Shown here: positions 19,362 to 59,252 of the stretch, piece by piece
How the letters are laid out: each line of letters begins with the position of its first letter
Numbering within the stretch: position 1 is the stretch's first letter
Assembly (NCBI RefSeq): GCF_041320705.1
Contig: NZ_JBGGTQ010000004.1
Span: forward strand, 1 to 64,000
Origin: Kineococcus mangrovi
GTDB lineage: Bacteria > Actinomycetota > Actinomycetes > Actinomycetales > Kineococcaceae
DNA: 64,000 nucleotides
Direction of reading: 5' to 3'
The notes under the pieces: model-generated
What the model was told of the DNA's origin: nothing
Databases searched by the model: none
The model's input: only the letters and a program-made list of their open reading frames with translations
Made by a program: the position numbers and the translations under genes

Positions 19362-19444
<83 letters not shown>

Positions 19445-19699: not shown

Positions 19700-19739
19700 T
19701 GGGCCGACCTGACACGGCGACGTGCATCGGAGAATCCTC

Positions 19740-20225
19740 ATGGCCAGCTCGGTCTTCTATAGCTTCCACTACACCCGTGACGTCAACCGTATCCAGCTCG
19801 TGCGCAACTTCGATGCCCTAGAAGGGCAGCCGATCTTGAACGCGCAGGAGTGGGAAGAGGTGCAGGAACAAGGGCCCGCAGCCATCGAAAAGTGGATCAA
19901 GGATCAGATGGCCTACAAGAAGGCCGTCATCGTCCTCATTGGCCAGGAAACGGCCAACCGCCCCTGGGTGCAGTACGAGGTCGACAAGGCGTGGGCGGAC
20001 AAGAAGCCCCTGCTGGGCATCCGAATCCACGGCCTGGCCTCCTTTGGGGGCGGAGCGGACATGCCCGGACCCAACCCGTTCGACCGTCTAGACGGCGGCT
20101 ACCTCGTACCGGTTTTCGACCCCACGGTCAAAGAGTGGACCGGCTCCATCGACACCAAGGCCACCTACAACACCTTGCACGACAGCATCGTGTCCTGGTC
20201 TACGCAGGGTGTGACGCGCTCCTGA
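19740..20225 (+). CDS. ThsB-like (DUF1863) TIR-domain protein
   Basis: 161 residues, almost all one TIR-like domain of the DUF1863/ThsB type: start VFYSFHYTRDVNRIQLVRN, then IEKWIKDQMAYKKAVIVLIG, ETANRPWVQYEVDKAW and LGIRIHGLA. E80 in WVQYE is at the place of the catalytic Glu of ThsB, which in Thoeris makes an ADP-ribose-derived signal from NAD after phage infection. ATG 19740 has CGGAGAA upstream. The stop overlaps the next start (TGATG), so the two products are probably made together. GC is lower than in the flanking chromosome. Confidence 0.85.
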   Translation: MASSVFYSFHYTRDVNRIQLVRNFDALEGQPILNAQEWEEVQEQGPAAIEKWIKDQMAYKKAVIVLIGQETANRPWVQYEVDKAWADKKPLLGIRIHGLASFGGGADMPGPNPFDRLDGGYLVPVFDPTVKEWTGSIDTKATYNTLHDSIVSWSTQGVTRS

Positions 20226-24027: not shown

Positions 24028-25515
24028 TCAGAGCTGAGAGGCGCGGCGGGCACGGGCGCGGTCGTCGGCCCACTCACGGGCTTGCGCGGCGGCGGTGGCG
24101 GCGAGGGCGGCGTCCCCAGCGGTCAACCAGCCGATGCCGTCCAAGGACCAGGAGCTGACGACCAACGTCGAGTCCTCCACCTCGGGCGGCTCCACGGTGG
24201 CGTCGTGATCCAGCGACGAGGTGGTGCGGCCGGTGAGGCGGTCGCGCAGCTGCTGCACCGACCACCGTTTCCGCGCTGACCGCAGCCGGCCGAGGGTGGT
24301 GGAGTAGCGGCGGGACTTCGTCGAGAAGTGCCCCCGGAAACCGAGCATCGCCGCCCACTTCGCCAGCGGCAGGTACTTCGGCCCGCCCGTCCGGGCGAGG
24401 TGCTGCACCTCAGCGAGCAATCGGCAGACGTGCTCGACGATGCCCATCCGCCGCGCCGCCTCGGCATCACGCAGACCCGGCGGAAGGCCGAAGTCGTCAC
24501 ACGCCTTCGTTGCGTACTTCGCGATGTACGCCGCGACGGTCTCAGGGTGCAGCCCGTCGTCGGGGTGGTCGGCACGCCCGGCCTCGCGGGTCGCTGCGGT
24601 CGTTACGGCGCGGGCATCGACCTGCGTCCCGAACCGCAACCGGCGCAGCTCCCCGCGGGCTTCGGTGGCGGGGGCGTCGAACCATACTCGCGCGGCGGCG
24701 ACGTGGACGAGTTCGCACAACTGCTGCGCGCTTACCGCCGTCAACGGGGCAGGGAACGCGTCGTTATCAGTAGGAGGACCGTCCAGGCGGATGAGGGCGT
24801 GGAAGTGCACCACCCCGCGGCGTTGGAACTCCGCCACCTTCGCGAACGACACCCGCAGCAGCGCGTGAGTGTCCTTCTGCGTCAACCCTAGGAAAGCGGC
24901 CAGAGCCCGGCGCAGGGCGATGGTGAAGCGACGCCACAACTCCGGAGACCACCACTGCCACACCACGTGCCCGGTGTAGTCGTAGCACTCCGCGCACAAC
25001 GGCTGCCCCAGCCGACGGTCGCCCTCGGCGTGCACGGCGCGGCAGCCAGCAGGGTTGCCGTGCTCGCACACCGCGTTCGTCGAGCGCGGCCGGCACATGC
25101 TCGGACGACCGTTCCTGCGACGCAGCCCGTGGACGGCACCGAACGACGGCGCGGTGAGAGTGGCGAACACCAGCGGATGCGTAGCCACCGACTCCGGAAC
25201 ACCCTTCATCCCTCCCGCAGCACCGGCAGCGAGCAGGTGCCACATGTCGCCCTTGTACTCGTGGGAGCACGACGGGCAGACGCTGGCGCGGCGGTTGCCG
25301 CAGCGGGTGTACAGGACTCCGTCCGGTTCGTTCGCGGAGTCGTACGTCGACAACACCTGGCCGGTGGTGCGGTCGATGGTAGTGGCCTGCCCACGCAGGC
25401 GGATGGGGCGGGCGCAGTGCCCGCAGTTCGCGGCCTGCTCGGCCCAGCGGTCGAAGGTGGGCGACAGCAGCCGACGACCGAGCTCAGCCTCTGCGCTGGG
25501 GGACAGGGTGTTCAC
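24028..25515 (-). CDS. RepSA-type rolling-circle replication initiator
   Basis: 495 residues. Paired cysteine motifs (CGHC and CPSC) suggest zinc binding near the N-terminus. The HUH-type motif II is VVHFHALIRLDG and motif III is VAAYIAKYATKA, with the catalytic Tyr. This is the initiator family of pSAM2-like elements, which nicks the double-strand origin, often within its own gene. GTG 25515 overlaps the translocase stop by 4 nt. It is encoded between the transfer and integration genes in one minus-strand transcription unit. Confidence 0.9.
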   Translation of the reverse strand: MNTLSPSAEAELGRRLLSPTFDRWAEQAANCGHCARPIRLRGQATTIDRTTGQVLSTYDSANEPDGVLYTRCGNRRASVCPSCSHEYKGDMWHLLAAGAAGGMKGVPESVATHPLVFATLTAPSFGAVHGLRRRNGRPSMCRPRSTNAVCEHGNPAGCRAVHAEGDRRLGQPLCAECYDYTGHVVWQWWSPELWRRFTIALRRALAAFLGLTQKDTHALLRVSFAKVAEFQRRGVVHFHALIRLDGPPTDNDAFPAPLTAVSAQQLCELVHVAAARVWFDAPATEARGELRRLRFGTQVDARAVTTAATREAGRADHPDDGLHPETVAAYIAKYATKACDDFGLPPGLRDAEAARRMGIVEHVCRLLAEVQHLARTGGPKYLPLAKWAAMLGFRGHFSTKSRRYSTTLGRLRSARKRWSVQQLRDRLTGRTTSSLDHDATVEPPEVEDSTLVVSSWSLDGIGWLTAGDAALAATAAAQAREWADDRARARRASQL

Positions 25516-27026
25516 GCCGCACCCGCCTGACGGAGGTGGTCGCCCGTCTCGGGGTGGGAGTCGTCGACGACGGAGAACACCGGCCGGAACCCCGGCGCCT
25601 TGCTCGGTGCGTGAGTGCGGGCGAGTTCTCCGATGGCGTGGTCGTCGTAGTAGGCCGCGCGGACCCGGACGGGCTCACGGACGCCGTCGACCTTGACGTA
25701 GGCGACACCAGGGGAGGTGTCAGGGATCTGGTGGCACAGCGCCCCGGACTCCCGCGCTCCCTCACCGAGGACCATGTCGACCTGGGCCTTCTCGTCCAGC
25801 CGCATCGCGACCTTGGTCGGGAACAGGTTGCGCAGGCCGAGGACTTCCTTGCGGGGGTCCTGCAACGCTGCGACCAAGACGACACCCGGTGCCCGTCCCT
25901 GGGTGGCGATCGCGGCCAGTGCCTTTTCCGCGCGGTCGCGGAGCTTGCGGTCCGGGGTGTACGCGGTGAGGAGAGCGACTTCATCGACCAGGACCACCAG
26001 TAGCGGTTCCCGGGTGCTGGGTTCGTGGCGGCGGGAGGTGCCGGCCATCCGGGCAGCCCGCTCCGTCATGAGCACTGCGGCGTCTTCGAGCAGCTGCACG
26101 CTGTCCTCGACGGTGGTCGCGAATCGGGTGAACAGGTCCCGGCCCGGCTGCAATTCCATCCCGGCCTTGCCGTCCACGGCCCACACCTGCACCAGCCCCT
26201 CGTGGATGCCTCCGGCGATGCCGCCGAGCAGGGACCAGACGACGGAGCCCTTTCCGGCGCCGGTGACCCCCACGATGAGGACGTGGGTGGCGGCCAGGCG
26301 CAGCAGCCACGGCTGACCGTCCTCGCACAGACCCACCGGGACCGCGGAGGCGTCGAGGACGTCGGGGATGGGCAGTGGGGTGACGACCTGGGCGAGGGGG
26401 TCGCCGTAGAGCCAGGTGATGGTGGCCGTGCGGGGGCCGGTCTTGCGGACCCGGCACGACCAGGCGCCGCACGCCGCGCCCATGGTCTCCGCCGCCGTTG
26501 CCAGGTCGTCGACGGTCTGCCCGGCCACGACCTGCACCCTCCCGGTTAGGACCAGGTGCTCGCGGGAGGCCCACCGCAGCCGCGACAGACCCGGTGTCCA
26601 GGACTCGCGCTGACCCGAGCGGCGGTCGGTGACGGCCATCGCGAGGCCAACCCTTTCGCACAGTCCCGGCCAGTTGCGGCGGATGGCCCGCTGCTTGCGC
26701 CGTCGCCATGCAGGCTGAGCCAGGAGGCGGTCGAAGGACACCGGCCACGTGAGCCGCCACACCACCAGCGCCCCCACGAGGATTGCAACGACGATGCCGA
26801 CCAGCAGGAGGTGGTCGCTGCTGTACGCCCACCACCCCGCGACCAGGACGGCCGCGACGAGCGGGAAACGCCACGCGAGCTGTATGGCCGTCTTGACCAT
26901 CCACCAGACCAGGGACAGCAACGAGACGATCAGCTCGGCGATCCAGTCGTCAGACCCAGAGTTGGCCTGCGAGGTGCTCTGCTGGGACGGCTGGTGGGTC
27001 ACGACACCTTGCGGACGGCCACCCAT
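25512..27026 (-). CDS. FtsK/SpoIIIE-type conjugative DNA translocase (TraSA-like)
   Basis: 504 residues. Two transmembrane helices (about 30-95) are followed by an FtsK-like ATPase with Walker A GVTGAGKGSVVW (near residue 255), Walker B LLVVLVDEVALL and VLVAALQDPRKEVLGLRN. In actinomycete elements a single such protein moves double-stranded DNA between cells. ATG 27026 is preferred over the adjacent GTG 27029 because GGAGG then lies 7 nt upstream; either way it overlaps the previous stop. No separate winged-helix clt-binding domain is obvious at the C-terminus. Confidence 0.9.
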   Translation of the reverse strand: MGGRPQGVVTHQPSQQSTSQANSGSDDWIAELIVSLLSLVWWMVKTAIQLAWRFPLVAAVLVAGWWAYSSDHLLLVGIVVAILVGALVVWRLTWPVSFDRLLAQPAWRRRKQRAIRRNWPGLCERVGLAMAVTDRRSGQRESWTPGLSRLRWASREHLVLTGRVQVVAGQTVDDLATAAETMGAACGAWSCRVRKTGPRTATITWLYGDPLAQVVTPLPIPDVLDASAVPVGLCEDGQPWLLRLAATHVLIVGVTGAGKGSVVWSLLGGIAGGIHEGLVQVWAVDGKAGMELQPGRDLFTRFATTVEDSVQLLEDAAVLMTERAARMAGTSRRHEPSTREPLLVVLVDEVALLTAYTPDRKLRDRAEKALAAIATQGRAPGVVLVAALQDPRKEVLGLRNLFPTKVAMRLDEKAQVDMVLGEGARESGALCHQIPDTSPGVAYVKVDGVREPVRVRAAYYDDHAIGELARTHAPSKAPGFRPVFSVVDDSHPETGDHLRQAGAA

Positions 27027-27325
27027 CACGCCACCTCCGACGCGCGCAGCCGGGCACGGCCTGCCGGGTGGCGCGACAAAGAGCGCAGCCGGGCGGCCTG
27101 TTCAGCGGCGACGGTGGCCAGGTAGCGGCACTCCGCTGCTTCCTGGGGGTCGATCGGCCCGTAGTGCTCGGCGAGCCGTCCGAAGAGTTCGGCCTTGCGC
27201 TCGATCCACGCCGCCCGCTCCCGCAACGGGGCCTGCGAGCCGGGGCGGGAGCGCAACAGCGCCCCGAGCTGCCCGGTGATGCTGTTCCGCTCGTTCCGCT
27301 CCGCCTGGAGCTGGTCGGCGCGCAT
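27026..27325 (-). CDS. Small helical AICE protein, function unknown
   Basis: 99 residues, Arg/Glu/Ala-rich and wholly helical (MRADQLQAERNERNSITGQL, then REERAAWIERKAELFGRLAE-like and an ECRYLATVAAEQAARL segment), no membrane segment. The ATG at 27325 overlaps the pra stop and its own stop overlaps the translocase start, so it is a coupled part of the transfer operon. I do not recognise a family. Confidence 0.7.
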   Translation of the reverse strand: MRADQLQAERNERNSITGQLGALLRSRPGSQAPLRERAAWIERKAELFGRLAEHYGPIDPQEAAECRYLATVAAEQAARLRSLSRHPAGRARLRASEVA

Positions 27326-53429: not shown

Positions 53430-53561
53430 CAAGCAGTCACATTGACGCGCCGGGACCCGGGCGGATCGCCCGAACGGCTTCGGAACCGGGTCCCGGAGGG
53501 GCAGACTCACCCGGGGTGCCGGGGGGCGCCGACCGGACGGACGACCAGCGGGGGGTGCGGC

Positions 53562-53873
53562 GTGACCGTCGTGAAGTGGGAAGAGACCGGCACGTGGGAC
53601 GAGAGCGCACCGGCCGCGCCCCCGCCGCGCACCGGCCGGCGGGAGGTGGCCGCCGCCGCCCTGTCGGTGCTGTGGCCGGGGCTGGGCCACGCCTACCTCG
53701 GCCGCACCGCCGCCGCCGTCGCGCTCGTGCTGGCCCAGGTGCTGCTCGTCGTGCTCACCGTCCTGCCCGGGGCCTGGCGGGTGACCCTGCCGGCGTGGGT
53801 CGCGCTGACGGCGCTCGCCGCCGTCGGGGCGTGGCGGGCGGCCCGCCACGCCCCGGGGGAACAGCCCGGCTGA
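53562..53873 (+). CDS. Small TM2-like membrane protein
   Basis: 103 residues. A soluble acidic start (VVKWEETGTWDESAPAA) is followed by LSVLWPGLGHAYLGRTAAAV, resembling the PGxGxxYLG motif of TM2/DUF5683-type proteins, and two or three hydrophobic segments. GTG 53562 follows GGGGGG, a poor ribosome binding site. Function unknown. Confidence 0.7.
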   Translation: MTVVKWEETGTWDESAPAAPPPRTGRREVAAAALSVLWPGLGHAYLGRTAAAVALVLAQVLLVVLTVLPGAWRVTLPAWVALTALAAVGAWRAARHAPGEQPG

Positions 53874-54106: not shown

Positions 54107-54730
54107 TCAGCCGCCGAAGGCCTGCCGGTACAGCGAGCGCAGCTCCTGGCTGGCCGGTCCGCTGGCCCCGCAGCCGGTGACCACGTCGCCGTCGGTGGTG
54201 ATCAGGTAGCTGGCTCCCTCGGTGAAGGGTCCGGGGCCGAACTCGGAGAGCTGGTCGGCGGGCTGCTGGGGCACGCTGACCTCGTCGTGGACGTCGCCCT
54301 GGTAGCGGTGGGTCACCTCGAGGGTGACGGTGCCGTCGTCGATGGCGGTGACGTCGGCTTCGAAGGCCAGGTCGCTGTCGGCCAAGGACTCCGCGCTGAC
54401 CGGTGCGCACGCCACGGCCGGTCCGCCGGCGGCGGCGGTCGGGACGGTCAGGGCGGTCACGGCCGATCCTGAGGTTCCGACGGCGATGGCGGCGACGACG
54501 CCGGCCGCGGCGGTGCCCAGCCCGGCACCGGCGAACAGACGCCGCCGGCTGCGGGCCGTCTTGGCGGGAGTGGCGGGGGTGGTGGGTGTGCTCATGGTCT
54601 GACGCGCCTTCCAGGTGATCCAGGTCGGGTCGATGTCGGGTAGGGACGCTGCGGGATCGATGCGGTGCAGGAGGGCTCGGAGGTCCTCGTCGTCGTGCCC
54701 GGGGCCGTGGGGTCGGGTGGAGTCGTTCAC
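54107..54730 (-). CDS. Membrane-anchored partner of the ECF sigma factor (putative anti-sigma)
   Basis: 207 residues: a cytoplasmic N-terminus (EDLRALLHRIDPAASLPDID), one transmembrane helix (about 66-90) and an extracytoplasmic part of ~115 residues with two cysteines (VACAPVSAESL, VTGCGASGP). There is no zinc-binding anti-sigma motif. Placement downstream of a sigma factor and the topology suggest an anti-sigma or sensor. GTG 54730 has AAGGAGG upstream. 127 bp separate it from the sigma gene. Confidence 0.7.
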   Translation of the reverse strand: MNDSTRPHGPGHDDEDLRALLHRIDPAASLPDIDPTWITWKARQTMSTPTTPATPAKTARSRRRLFAGAGLGTAAAGVVAAIAVGTSGSAVTALTVPTAAAGGPAVACAPVSAESLADSDLAFEADVTAIDDGTVTLEVTHRYQGDVHDEVSVPQQPADQLSEFGPGPFTEGASYLITTDGDVVTGCGASGPASQELRSLYRQAFGG

Positions 54731-54857
54731 CGCCGCGGCCCTCCTTCCTGCTGGTGTTCCTGCTGGTGCGGCTCGCCCCGGTGGGTCGAGCCGGTGGTCC
54801 TCACCTGGTTCGTGTCCGCACCCCCGGCGGTTCTTACGGGTCCGGTTCGCTCGAGGG

Positions 54858-55445
54858 TCATGAGACGGCTTCCAGGTGGGTGCGCAGCTTCTTCTTGGCC
54901 CGGTGCAGGCGCACGGTGGCCGCGTTGACGCTGGTGCCGAGGACCACGGCGATCTGGGTGGGGGTCAGCTGCTCCCAGGCCCACAACCGGACCACTTCGG
55001 CGTCCTTGGCGTTCAGACGGCTCATCGCCGCTGCGACCGTGGCGGCGGCGTGGTCGGCGGCGTCCTGCTCGGGGGTGGACTGGCCCGGGCCGGGGAGGTG
55101 CTGGACCGGAGGGTCGACGGAGGCCACCCGCCGGGCCAGCAGCCCGCGGCGGCGTCCGGCGCGCTCGGCGTTGGCCAGGCACCACCGCGCCACCCCGATC
55201 GCCCACGCCACCGCGGCGTCGGCGGGGATGTCACCGGCTCGGCGCCAGCACACCAGCAGCGTCTCGGACAGCACGTCCTCGGCGGTGGCGGAGTCGGTGC
55301 GGCGGGCCAGGTAGCGGCGCAGCGGGTCCACCGCCTCGGTGGCCAGGGCCTCGAACCGCGCGCTCAGGTCCTGCTCGCTCGCCTCCGGTGGGGAGGCCGA
55401 GGGGGGCGGGGACTGGTGGGGGTCACCAGGAGTCACAGGCGGCAC
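54858..55445 (-). CDS. ECF-type RNA polymerase sigma factor
   Basis: 195 residues: region 2 (DPLRRYLARRTDSATAEDVL, SETLLVCWRRAGDIP, AWAIGVARWCLANAERAGRR) and region 4 (MSRLNAKDAEVVRLWAWEQL, TPTQIAVVLGTSVNAATVRL). GTG 55445 is given; GTG 55436 is possible. Downstream is its probable anti-sigma partner and upstream, same strand, a secreted repeat protein, so the three may be one regulatory unit. Confidence 0.9.
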   Translation of the reverse strand: MPPVTPGDPHQSPPPSASPPEASEQDLSARFEALATEAVDPLRRYLARRTDSATAEDVLSETLLVCWRRAGDIPADAAVAWAIGVARWCLANAERAGRRRGLLARRVASVDPPVQHLPGPGQSTPEQDAADHAAATVAAAMSRLNAKDAEVVRLWAWEQLTPTQIAVVLGTSVNAATVRLHRAKKKLRTHLEAVS

Positions 55446-55565
55446 ACCCCACCATGTCCACCGACGGGCCCGTCCTTACACGTCGGCGGACGTCGGGCGG
55501 ACGACGGCGGGCGAAGGACGTCGGCCAAGGGTGCCGCCTTCGTCCTCGCCGCCCGCCGGTGGTGC

Positions 55566-55919
55566 TCAAGACCCCTGGACGCTGTCGGTGACGACCTGCG
55601 GGGCGATGAGCATGTCGTCGCCGTAGGAGTGCTCGGTGGGGGCGATGAGCATGTCGTCGCCGTAGGAGTGCTCGGTGGTGGTGCTGTCGTCGGCGGTGGA
55701 GCCGTCAGCGACCACGCCCGAGACCTGCGGGGCGATGAGCATGTCGTCGCCGTAGGACTGCTCGCCGTGGGAGTGCCCGGTGGTGGGGACGGCGGTGTCC
55801 TGGCCGGCGAAAGCCACCCCGGTACCGCCGCCGACGACGGCGGCGGTCAACACCAGGGCCAGGGCCCCCCGACGCAGGCGGCGACGGGTGGAGGTGGTCT
55901 GAGCGGCGGTGGTGGACAT
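55566..55919 (-). CDS. Secreted small protein with three YGDDMLIAP repeats
   Basis: 117 residues. An N-terminal signal (RRRLRRGALALVLTAAVVGG, then GTGVAFAG) is followed by an acidic, His-containing mature part. It holds three near-identical segments: QSYGDDMLIAPQV, HSYGDDMLIAPT and HSYGDDMLIAPQV, with GHSHGE before the first. DNA repeats of about 37 bp (near 55601, 55640 and 55730) show recent duplication. I know no family for it. It lies 120 bp upstream of the ECF sigma gene on the same strand. A hairpin-like GC-rich stretch follows its stop. Confidence 0.75.
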   Translation of the reverse strand: MSTTAAQTTSTRRRLRRGALALVLTAAVVGGGTGVAFAGQDTAVPTTGHSHGEQSYGDDMLIAPQVSGVVADGSTADDSTTTEHSYGDDMLIAPTEHSYGDDMLIAPQVVTDSVQGS

Positions 55920-56220
55920 GAGTGCTCCTACGTCGGGGGGCCCTGGTGGGCCCGGAGGTCGAGGGACGAGGATCGGCCCGGGAGCCCGTCGACCGCGCCG
56001 CGGTGGTGAGCTCGTTCCCGGCTGACCCTCACCCCTTCATGTCCGGCACCAGCGGTGGTCTTACGACGCGGTCGGTGCGGTCCTGCACCCACCTCGCCGC
56101 CGGCTCACCGTCCTGCGCCACCTCGTCGGTGAGGCCCGCGACCGGTACCGCCGACCCGGTCGCCCCACGACCCGGCGGCTGGAGCGAGCGCCTGCTGCCG
56201 CTCGCTCGTAGGGTCGGGGC
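55920..56220. other. Divergent promoter region, no gene seen
   Basis: 301 bp between the secreted-repeat gene and the 46-residue membrane protein. No frame is convincing. It ends with TAGGGT (56209-56214) six nucleotides before the next start. Confidence 0.5.
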
Positions 56221-56394: not shown

Positions 56395-57831
56395 TCAGGA
56401 GATCACGGTCCACAGGACCCAGACCAGGCCGAACGCCATGAGACCGATGCCGGTCGACACGACGCTCCACGTCTTGAGCGTCGTGGCGGTGTCCAGGCCC
56501 AGGAACCGGCCGACCAGCCAGAACCCCGAGTCGTTGACGTGGGAGAAGCTGATCGCCCCGGCGGTCATGGCCACCGTCAGGCACGCCAGTTGCAGCGCGG
56601 AAAGCGAGGGGTCCGCCGCGACCGCGGGGGCCAGCAGCCCCGCGGCGGTGGTCCCGGCCACCGTGGCCGACCCCTGCGCGATGCGCAGGGCCACCGCGAT
56701 GAGGAACCCGGCGACGATGAGCGGCAGACCGGCCGCGTCGAGCTCCCCGGCCAGCGCGCCCCCGATGCCGGTCTCGGTGAGGACGCGACCGAACATCCCG
56801 CCCGCACCGGTGATGAGGATGATCGAGCAGACCGGCGCCAGGGCCGAGTCGACGACCTCCTCCAGGCGACCGCCGACCTTGCCGCGGTTCGGGCGGACCA
56901 CCAGCAGCAGCATCGCCAGCACGCTGGTGATGAGCAGCGCCACGGGGGTCGCCCCGATGATCTGCAGGACGACGACGAGCGGGTTGTCCTCGTCGACGCC
57001 GTAGTTCGTCACCGCCGTGCTCGAGCCCGTGCCCCCGAAGATCAGCACCAGCGGCAGCAGCAGGACGAGCAGGATGACGCCGAAGCGGGGACGGGGCTGA
57101 TCGCTGCTCTCGCTGGGCCGGCCCAGCAGGTCCGGGACGGGCAGGAAGTCGGCCCGCTTGGCCAGCGCGAGCGCCAGCCGGTAACCCATGACGTACCAGG
57201 TGGGCAGCGCCACCAGCATCCCGACGACCAGCACCAGCCCGACGTCGGCGCCCAGCAGGCTGGCGGCCGCGACCGGCCCGGGGTGCGGCGGGACGAGGGC
57301 GTGCATGACGAGGAACGCGCCCGCCGCGGGCAGCGCGTAGAGCATCAGCGAACCGCCCAGCCGGCGGGCGACGGTGTAGACGACGGGCAGCATGACGACG
57401 AAGGCGGCGTCCAGGAAGATCGGGAAGCCGTAGAACAGGGACGCGACCGACAGCGCCAGCGGCGCCCTGGACTCCCCGAACCGGGCGACGAGCGTGTCCG
57501 CCAGGACCCGCGCACCCCCGGAGACCTCGACGATGCGGCCCAGGACGGCGCCGAAACCCACGAGGAGGGCCACCGTGGACAGGGTGTTCCCGAAACCGCT
57601 CGTCAAGGTGCTCACGAGGTCAGCGGCGGGGATCCCGGCGACGACCGCCGTCAGCAGGCTGACGATGACGAGCGCGTAGAACGCGTGCAGCTTGACCTTG
57701 ATGATGAGGACCAGCAGCACCGCGATCGCCACCACCGCGGTCAGCAGCAGGAAGGTCGTGGAGCGGGTGGCCCCGGCGGTCGTCGTGGCGGCGGAGAACC
57801 CGGCCACCAGTCCGGGGGATGTGGGCAGCAC
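56395..57831 (-). CDS. Gluconate permease, GntP family
   Basis: 478 residues, twelve or more helices. VKLHAFYALVIVSLLTAVVA, SGFGNTLSTVALLVGFGAVLG, ALVPPHPGPVAAASLLGAD, ITGAGGMFGRVLTETGIGG and ISFSHVNDSGFWLVGRFLG are GntP hallmarks. It imports gluconate or a related sugar acid. GTG 57831 has GAAGAGG upstream. No gluconate kinase is adjacent, so the substrate is by family only. Confidence 0.93.
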   Translation of the reverse strand: MLPTSPGLVAGFSAATTTAGATRSTTFLLLTAVVAIAVLLVLIIKVKLHAFYALVIVSLLTAVVAGIPAADLVSTLTSGFGNTLSTVALLVGFGAVLGRIVEVSGGARVLADTLVARFGESRAPLALSVASLFYGFPIFLDAAFVVMLPVVYTVARRLGGSLMLYALPAAGAFLVMHALVPPHPGPVAAASLLGADVGLVLVVGMLVALPTWYVMGYRLALALAKRADFLPVPDLLGRPSESSDQPRPRFGVILLVLLLPLVLIFGGTGSSTAVTNYGVDEDNPLVVVLQIIGATPVALLITSVLAMLLLVVRPNRGKVGGRLEEVVDSALAPVCSIILITGAGGMFGRVLTETGIGGALAGELDAAGLPLIVAGFLIAVALRIAQGSATVAGTTAAGLLAPAVAADPSLSALQLACLTVAMTAGAISFSHVNDSGFWLVGRFLGLDTATTLKTWSVVSTGIGLMAFGLVWVLWTVIS

Positions 57832-57977
57832 GGTGCACCTCTTCGTCGGTCGGCCTCGTCCGGCGAGCGTAGCTGTGGGCCCGCTGTGCCGATCCCCGGG
57901 ACGGTCCGGGCAGCGTGCCGGGGACGGTTAGCCTTCGCTCGGCCCGGCGCCCGGCCGGACCACGAGGGAGGACGCAC

Positions 57978-59252
57978 GTGGCGAGGACAGGTTGGCGACT
58001 GCACGGTGACGGGCGGTCGGTCTCCCCGGGTGAGGTCGTCGCCCCCGACGAGCGGCTCGCGTGGGGGCGGACCGTGGGCATCGGGCTGCAGCACGTCGTC
58101 GCGATGTTCGGCTCGACGGTCCTCGTCCCGGCCATCACCGGGTTCCCCGTCGCCACGACGCTGTTCTTCTCCGCCGTCGGCACCGCGCTGTTCCTGCTGC
58201 TGACCCGCAACCGGCTGCCCAGCTACCTCGGGTCCTCGTTCGCCTTCATCGCCCCGATCCTGGCCGGCTCGGCCGGGACGGCGGGCGGGGGGATCCTCGT
58301 CACGGGTCTGCTCCTGGCCGTCGTCGGCCTCGTCGTCCACGTCGTGGGCTCGCGGTGGATTGACGTCGTCATGCCGCCCGTCGTCACCGGCACGATCGTG
58401 GCGCTCATCGGCCTGAACCTCGCGCCGGCGGCGTGGGGGACGACGGAGGACTCCGGGTTCCGCGCCGACCCCGTCGGCGGGATCGTGACGCTGCTGGCGA
58501 TCGCCCTGACCAGCGTCCTGTTCCGCGGGTTGCTGGGCCGGCTCGCGATCCTGCTCGGGGTCGCCGTCGGGTACGTCGTCGCGGCCGCCCGCGGGCTGGT
58601 GGACTTCACCGCCGTCGAGCAGGCCGCCTGGATCGGGCTGCCGGAGTTCCGGGCGCCGCGGTTCGACGCCGGTGACCTCGCGCTGTTCCTGCCCGTCGTC
58701 TTCGTCCTCGTCGCCGAGAACGTCGGGCACGTGAAGTCCGTCGCGGCCATGACCGGCCGGGACCTGGACCCCCTCGCCGGGCGGGCGCTGCTCGCCGACG
58801 GGCTCGCCACGAGCCTGGCCGGGCTGGGCGGCGGGTCCGGGACCACCACGTACGCGGAGAACATCGGCGTCATGGCGGCCTCGAAGGTCTACTCCACGGC
58901 GGCCTACTGGGTCGCGGCGGCCGGTGCGCTCGTCCTGTCGTTCTCGCCGAAGTTCGGGGCGCTCATCGGCTCCGTCCCGCCCGGTGTCCTCGGCGGCGCC
59001 GCGACCCTGCTCTACGGGATGATCGGCGTCCTCGGGGCGCGGATCTGGGTGCAGAACAAGGTCGACTTCTCCGACCCGGTCAACCTCACGACCGCGGCCG
59101 TCGCGCTCGTCGTCGGCATCGCGAACTACACGCTGACCACCTCCGGCGGCCTGACGTTCGAGGGCATCGCCCTCGGCACCGTCGCCGCCATCGGCCTGCA
59201 CCACCTCATGCGGGCCGTGGGCCGGGCGCGCGGGACGGTCAGCGCGGGCTGA
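57978..59252 (+). CDS. uraA: Uracil permease, NCS2 family
   Basis: 424 residues, about fourteen helices. LQHVVAMFGSTVLVPAITGF at the start, SFAFIAPILAGS, AENVGHVKSVAAMTGRDL with the substrate-binding Glu, and the motif GLGGGSGTTTYAENIGVMAA are UraA/PyrP signatures. GTG 57978 has GGGAGGA upstream at 57966. It overlaps the end of the convergent channel gene by 14 bp. Confidence 0.92.
   Translation: MARTGWRLHGDGRSVSPGEVVAPDERLAWGRTVGIGLQHVVAMFGSTVLVPAITGFPVATTLFFSAVGTALFLLLTRNRLPSYLGSSFAFIAPILAGSAGTAGGGILVTGLLLAVVGLVVHVVGSRWIDVVMPPVVTGTIVALIGLNLAPAAWGTTEDSGFRADPVGGIVTLLAIALTSVLFRGLLGRLAILLGVAVGYVVAAARGLVDFTAVEQAAWIGLPEFRAPRFDAGDLALFLPVVFVLVAENVGHVKSVAAMTGRDLDPLAGRALLADGLATSLAGLGGGSGTTTYAENIGVMAASKVYSTAAYWVAAAGALVLSFSPKFGALIGSVPPGVLGGAATLLYGMIGVLGARIWVQNKVDFSDPVNLTTAAVALVVGIANYTLTTSGGLTFEGIALGTVAAIGLHHLMRAVGRARGTVSAG

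Follow-up and report, generated by a model that had tools for sequence, protein, structure and literature searches.

An orphan repeat-peptide gene, an ECF sigma factor gene and the gene of a probable membrane anti-sigma factor with a predicted TIMP/NTR-like ectodomain share a promoter-like motif in Kineococcus mangrovi

The window analysed here is a stretch of 64,000 nucleotides of Kineococcus mangrovi (contig NZ_JBGGTQ010000004.1, positions 1 to 64,000), whose minus strand carries three adjacent genes, each preceded by the same promoter-like motif. The first, the repeat gene, encodes a small protein with three copies of the nonapeptide YGDDMLIAP; it is followed on the same strand by the gene of an ECF sigma factor and then by that of a membrane protein, hereafter the partner, an arrangement that the first-pass annotation had described correctly. 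The features of the locus, in the direction of transcription, are the following:

56040 to 56064, minus strand: predicted ECF promoter of the repeat gene, GTAAG-N15-GGACA, with 120 nt between the motif and the ATG
55566 to 55919, minus strand: repeat gene, ATG at 55919, stop codon at 55566-55568, 117 aa, GC3 0.94, AGGAG upstream of the ATG
55728 to 55754, minus strand: YGDDMLIAP copy 1, with a 36-nt exact block in common with copy 3
55599 to 55664, minus strand: tandem YGDDMLIAP copies 2 and 3, 39 bp start to start, with a 40-nt exact block
55455 to 55479, minus strand: predicted autoregulatory ECF promoter of the sigma gene, GTAAG-N15-GGACA
54858 to 55445, minus strand: ECF sigma factor, regions 2 and 4 (Sigma70_r4_2 E 5.1e-10; TIGR02937 50.8 bits)
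54813 to 54837, minus strand: predicted ECF promoter of the partner gene, GTAAG-N15-GGACA, 82 nt upstream of the GTG
54107 to 54730, minus strand: membrane partner, probable anti-sigma factor, with two predicted N-terminal helices, one hydrophobic segment and a TIMP/NTR-like ectodomain to residue 207

The repeat ORF is very likely a real gene, since its GC content at codon positions 1/2/3 (0.67/0.55/0.94) resembles that of the three neighbours compared and an AGGAG lies 5 nt upstream of its ATG. Residues 12-38 of the encoded protein are shaped, by eye and in the hydropathy profile, like a Sec signal peptide (RRRLRR, a hydrophobic core and AFA/G), and the protein is predicted to be secreted via this Sec-type signal, with a mature part of about 79 residues. 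Residues 40-117 include 14 acidic residues (11 Asp and 3 Glu), 4 His and 3 Met, hold no Lys or Arg, and have a computed pI of 4.05, while the number of Cys in the whole 117-aa protein is zero; the earlier description of a short, acidic, secreted protein agrees with these values, secretion being a prediction. No Pfam family matches the protein at E <= 1, its NCBIfam matches all lie far below the cut-offs, and the best PHROGs match reaches just E 0.021. A single-sequence structure model is of low confidence (mean pLDDT 57) and has a helix over residues 10-30 alone, and the acidic peptide is probably unstructured.

YGDDMLIAP begins at residues 56, 86 and 99, and at the DNA level a 26-nt core, TACGGCGACGACATGCTCATCGCCCC, recurs unchanged in each copy (55600-55625, 55639-55664 and 55729-55754 on the minus strand). 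The distance from copy 1 to copy 2 is 90 bp, and the pairwise exact DNA blocks between the copies measure 29, 36 and 40 nt. Three identical 26-mers within 354 nt are, judged directly, not due to chance, and the near-identical nonapeptides with matching DNA repeats that had been noticed at first pass are confirmed in this form. Since the silent sites are identical too, the copies look like recent in-frame duplications. The same repeats had been taken to suggest selection for copy number, a claim that is not borne out: recent duplication alone explains the silent-site identity, which neither proves nor excludes such selection, and the gene is absent from all the relatives searched.

The three identical units also have similar flanks, with EHS or EQS preceding them, as might be expected of a RiPP-like or multi-copy pheromone precursor that is processed into nonapeptides. 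This reading, the RiPP-like part of which had also been put forward at first pass, is very improbable: the signal is of the Sec type, the mature part holds no Lys or Arg for trypsin-like or dibasic cleavage and no Cys, and the ORFs scanned from 44.6 to 63.4 kb include no RiPP-type modification enzyme family. The families present among these ORFs are Nramp, GNAT, MFS, Apiosidase-like, Na/Ala symporter, ABC ATPase and class I methyltransferase, together with GntP and xanthine permeases, an ion channel and two amino-acid pathway enzymes, and one ORF is without a match. Immediately beside the module, a small ORF on the plus strand (53442-53873) reads like a membrane protein and has no Pfam match at E <= 1e-4. 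Elsewhere in the window, the segment 19362-32858 looks like an actinomycete integrative conjugative element with a defence gene: after a tRNA-Pro (cgg, 19362-19438) come a Thoeris gene of the ThsB-like TIR kind (19722-20225), a RepSA initiator of the pSAM2 type (24028-25515) and an FtsK-like gene (25512-27029), along with a NUDIX gene and a weak match to a Phd/YefM-like antitoxin.

As far as searched, the repeat gene appears to be an orphan. Homology and motif searches found it in none of 10 genus relatives and one other member of the family, and within its own genome the homology search returned the repeat protein itself and five weak matches (E 0.05 to 0.64). Among 59 genomes, matches at E <= 0.01 occur in eight, namely the own genome and seven at the level of the order; these seven have 32-45% identity, extend from the signal peptide to query residues 63-94 and belong to open frames 305 to 931 aa long. 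When the loci of all the weak matches (L002 to L013) were read in six frames, no YGDDM, DDMLI or DMLIAP appeared. The nonapeptide pattern matches the own genome alone across 396 genomes of the order, and with two mismatches allowed in twelve family genomes it gives one extra match, which reads YGGGMLMAP (in G008). Among 84,980 named species (one genome each), the pattern has 13 matches, all in unrelated proteins: 11 belong to one Streptomyces GTPase-like protein (YGDDMVVAP or YGEDMVVAP) and two to proteins that read like glycoside hydrolases, the names being read from the translations. Viral contigs contain no match to the pattern, and plasmids and phages none to the protein (tblastn, E <= 1). 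The expectation that relatives would carry YGDDMLIAP repeats thus found no example in these searches, of which the pattern scans miss strongly altered repeats. In G010, the closest relative at the locus (81% identity for the neighbouring GntP permease), the flanking genes are present and the segment corresponding to about 52.6-56.4 kb is missing, and the genome has no site of the GHAAG-N15-GGACA form considered below. The GntP and xanthine/uracil permeases of the window (56395-59252) occur in swapped order in the matching G010 locus (L044).

The product of the second gene passes the sigma70-ECF family TIGR02937, whose cut-off is 42.9 bits; Sigma70_r4_2 scores above its Pfam cut-off and Sigma70_r2 under its own. 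The GTG start lies 9 nt downstream of the -10-like GGACA, and this distance is likewise 9 nt in the loci L022 and L024 and 10 nt in L023, suggesting that the sigma mRNA is probably leaderless. The region between the repeat gene and the sigma gene contains a stable stem that is no better than those of shuffled sequences (z -0.71), and an intrinsic-terminator scan of the same region found none, so that read-through from the repeat gene into the sigma gene is possible.

The partner begins with a short N-terminus, predicted to be cytoplasmic, with helices at residues 12-23 and 35-46 (pLDDT about 56-73), followed by a poorly modelled hydrophobic segment, within about 64-97, that is fit for a membrane helix. 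In its ectodomain, Cys108 and Cys187 have a counterpart in 7 of 7 aligned proteins, one of which is one column off. The AlphaFold2 model has an overall mean pLDDT of 69.4; the ten-residue mean lies at 77-95 over most of 111-207 (66 for 161-170), and the values drop below 50 in 47-88 and 100-105. A Foldseek search of the ectodomain against the PDB gave 11 chains with E <= 0.001, every one a TIMP or NTR entry with probability 1.00 (E 1.3e-4 to 7.7e-4, rmsd 4.3-5.0, target-normalised TM 0.33-0.49). When the Foldseek list was realigned with VIA-align, agrin NtA reached Z 8.3 (rmsd 3.0, 96 aligned), and the other rows, including the complement C345C (NTR) region and TIMP, mostly fell at Z 6-8, scores that are middling and belong to one superfamily throughout. 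The ectodomain is assigned, as a prediction from this model, an NTR (OB-barrel) fold. Pfam yielded no TIMP or NTR family for seven partner homologues at E <= 5 and recognised no anti-sigma domain in the partner, and a PDB sequence search with the partner gave nothing of the TIMP/NTR kind. Gene order, topology and the shared motif make the partner a probable anti-sigma factor; the open-access literature searched contained no paper on an anti-sigma factor of the NTR/TIMP type, a result that speaks for that library only.

The motif that unites the three genes was first read from their upstream regions set side by side (180, 120 and 120 nt). GTAAG-15-GGACA is the sole 5-N(10-20)-5 word pair common to all three regions, and a shared word pair of any kind appears in 0 of 1000 dinucleotide-shuffled sets and in 4 of 1000 sets of regions drawn at random from the window. 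Across the genome's 4,355,532 bases (23 contigs), GTAAG-N15-GGACA has exactly three matches, all at these genes and correctly oriented, and the wider pattern GHAAG-N15-GGACA finds the same three sites only. The count alone means little, because the backwards control of the GHAAG pattern likewise has three matches in this genome; since the number is thus at chance level, it is the clustering before three adjacent genes, in the correct orientation, that constitutes evidence and goes beyond chance. When the spacer of the GHAAG pattern is varied from 10 to 21 within the window, three sites appear at 15, one at 20 and none at the other lengths. A spacer of 16, tried as a candidate for the promoter pattern, gave two other sites only and was dropped for N15. 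Spacer letters and flanks differ among the three window sites, which argues that the sites do not stem from a recent DNA duplication. The sigma factor probably uses this motif and, since the only exact genome matches precede these three genes, membership of the repeat gene in the sigma regulon is well supported at the sequence level, in line with the suggestion of the first-pass annotation that the peptide is a target of this regulon, and on stronger grounds than the gene order; the genome-wide search used exact patterns, so the regulon may include further targets with weaker sites.

Membership in the regulon also bears on the possibility that the repeats are a transient product of duplication in a young or dispensable orphan, with a real promoter and repeats without function. 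This possibility is a tentative one. The identical silent sites, the lack of a homologue in 11 other genomes of the family and the absence of the locus from G010 are what it would predict; conversely, the gene has a good ribosome site, a coding-like composition and its own member of the exclusive promoter set, and the duplications preserved the frame.

Proteins like the partner occur in 6 of the 59 genomes searched, the own genome included, and four relatives (G001, G002, G018 and G036) carry G(A/C/T)AAG-N15-GGACA upstream of at least one related gene. Specifically, G002 and G018 have the motif, in the GAAAG or GCAAG form, before both the sigma and the partner gene, the site of the latter lying within the terminal part of the sigma ORF. 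In G001 the motif precedes the partner gene, and the sigma gene is truncated to its last part. At this locus (L021, 6609-7871) the sigma gene is cut to its region-4 end, directly after an isoprenylcysteine methyltransferase-like gene, and the partner gene and its promoter-like motif persist despite the truncation. In G036 the motif lies before the sigma gene, with a further site 235 bp upstream of that one, is absent before the sigma-linked partner gene, and also precedes the unlinked gene of an NTR-like lipoprotein that corresponds to a free version of the ectodomain. The lipoprotein gene (L025, 6075-6683) encodes the lipobox LAGC and has the motif 59 nt upstream of its ATG; tblastn at E <= 1 detected no sigma gene in its 12-kb locus. 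The partner-like gene of G023 (in L019) has no site.

The share of GHAAG sites that fall at module genes is 1 of 4 in G001, 2 of 4 in both G002 and G018, 3 of 3 in G036 and 0 of 5 in G023. Seven off-module sites of G001, G002 and G018 were read, and none is clearly the promoter of a secreted peptide. In the nine genomes G003 to G011, which have no partner match at E <= 1e-6, the pattern has 11 sites and its backwards control 21. A weight matrix built from 7 of the 8 module sites of the relatives ranks the three window sites 1 to 3 over both strands of the 64 kb (25.3, 19.7 and 19.1; the next site scores 13.4), a test that is not independent because the relatives' sites were picked with the window-derived pattern in mind. 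Against a background of 61 loci (277,967 bases, 22 of the loci chosen for holding a GHAAG site, the top three sites per locus counted), one locus scored above the third window site, namely L086 in G001, where the site falls within an open frame of 462 aa whose translation resembles a solute-binding protein. The surroundings of the module in G001, G002, G018 and G036 contain nothing like the repeat gene.

Taken as a whole, the locus is best read as a compact, closed and autoregulated ECF system of three adjacent genes, with the repeat peptide as its only recognised non-regulatory target, a reading to which we assign a probability of about 0.7 from the sequence data, a value slightly lowered on account of the relatives' module genes that have no site. 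The membrane partner would hold the sigma factor until an extracellular event at its TIMP/NTR-like ectodomain leads to release; the freed sigma factor would then recognise GTAAG-N15-GGACA and direct transcription of its own gene, probably as a leaderless mRNA, of the partner gene and of the repeat gene. The secreted acidic peptide, with its three YGDDMLIAP units, would exert its effect beyond the membrane, its target being the envelope, the surroundings of the cell or, in a feedback, the sensor. No other non-regulatory gene carries the exact motif, which makes the repeat gene the foremost candidate for an output, and its peptide is probably the dedicated output of the sigma system.

What the peptide does as this output can be construed in two main ways, which take in the extracellular signal and the metal or surface ligand suggested at first pass and are both possible. 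One is that it serves as an extracellular ligand of the NTR-like ectodomain of the partner, giving negative or positive feedback, with the number of repeats setting the avidity. NTR-fold domains are protein-binding modules, one exclusive promoter-like motif precedes both the gene of the peptide and that of the receptor-like partner, the low-confidence model assigns the peptide no fold of its own, and the extra motif-bearing gene of G036 is also extracellular, being a free lipoprotein form of the ectodomain. Nevertheless, G001, G002, G018 and G036 have partner genes without an adjoining peptide, from which it follows that the peptide is dispensable for the system, and a ligand role is on balance unlikely. 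Quite improbable is the extended form of this idea, a surface loop in which the ECF sigma factor drives a multi-copy peptide that is the ligand of its own TIMP/netrin-like receptor, so that accumulation of the peptide outside the cell, through population density or confinement, would set sigma activity, with repeat number as an avidity dial.

Alternatively, the peptide could be an envelope or metal-binding effector, with acidic patches containing His, Asp and Met, that is made under a stress sensed by the partner. The composition of residues 40-117 described above is compatible with such a role, and there is a precedent in BldN/RsbN, an ECF sigma factor with a membrane anti-sigma factor that, according to the title of Bibb et al. 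2012 as cited in PMC4255298, controls the chaplin and rodlin sheath proteins. On the other side, the sole metal-transporter family among the neighbours scanned is Nramp (44.6-45.8 kb), whose gene lies about 8 kb from the module and is without the exact motif. An effector role is possible and is put forward with reserve.

In either case, a promoter-like signature that only three genes possess links the repeat peptide to a single sigma factor, while the definition of ECF regulons usually needs experiment. Should the NTR-like sensor be the peptide's target, the locus would represent a bacterial peptide-signalling loop built with a fold whose best-known examples are extracellular matrix proteins of animals; otherwise, it would be a clean case of an existing regulon that has taken up a lineage-specific gene.

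Several known systems resemble the module in part. Bufferins, secreted copper peptides that MNIO enzymes modify, are in some cases under the control of ECF sigma factors, and the present locus likewise has a gene for a small, predictedly secreted peptide adjoining an ECF sigma gene. However, the repeat protein has no Cys and therefore lacks the conserved Cys motifs, and there is no MNIO/DUF692-type neighbour among the ORFs scanned, so that a bufferin reading finds no support. With the TIMP/NTR proteins, the partner ectodomain has in common its predicted fold, which matches TIMP-1, TIMP-2, the PCOLCE NTR domain and agrin NtA, and a conserved Cys pair; it differs in a sequence identity of 5 to 21%, in TM values that stay under 0.5 for the 11 top-ranking Foldseek chains and in having no Pfam or PDB sequence match of the TIMP/NTR kind. 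Inhibitory TIMPs have a free N-terminal Cys, which is impossible in the partner ectodomain because this is tethered to the membrane on its N-terminal side.

As regards the cytoplasmic side, the class II anti-sigma factor CnrY has a short cytoplasmic part with two helices, as stated in a passage of PMC7406223; the short cytoplasmic part of the partner, with its two helices predicted at moderate confidence, is similar, but the partner is without a sequence match. The motif GNAAG / GGACA, in turn, departs from AAC / CGT, the pattern that a section of the review PMC8103513 gives as originally listed for ECF promoters, which counts against the regulatory reading. A close parallel in organisation is Streptomyces sigma-BldN: according to PMC4255298, rsbN, the gene of its anti-sigma factor, is transcribed from a BldN-dependent promoter of its own. 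Both systems would combine an ECF sigma factor and an adjacent membrane-anchored anti-sigma factor having its own sigma-dependent promoter with small surface-protein targets (sections of PMC4255298 and PMC8103513), features that are predicted in the present case. Conversely, the present sigma factor scores 29.6 bits against the BldN family TIGR02952, whose cut-off is 206.45, its target is an acidic repeat peptide without a Pfam match (E <= 1) rather than a chaplin or rodlin, and its motif set consists of three sites only.
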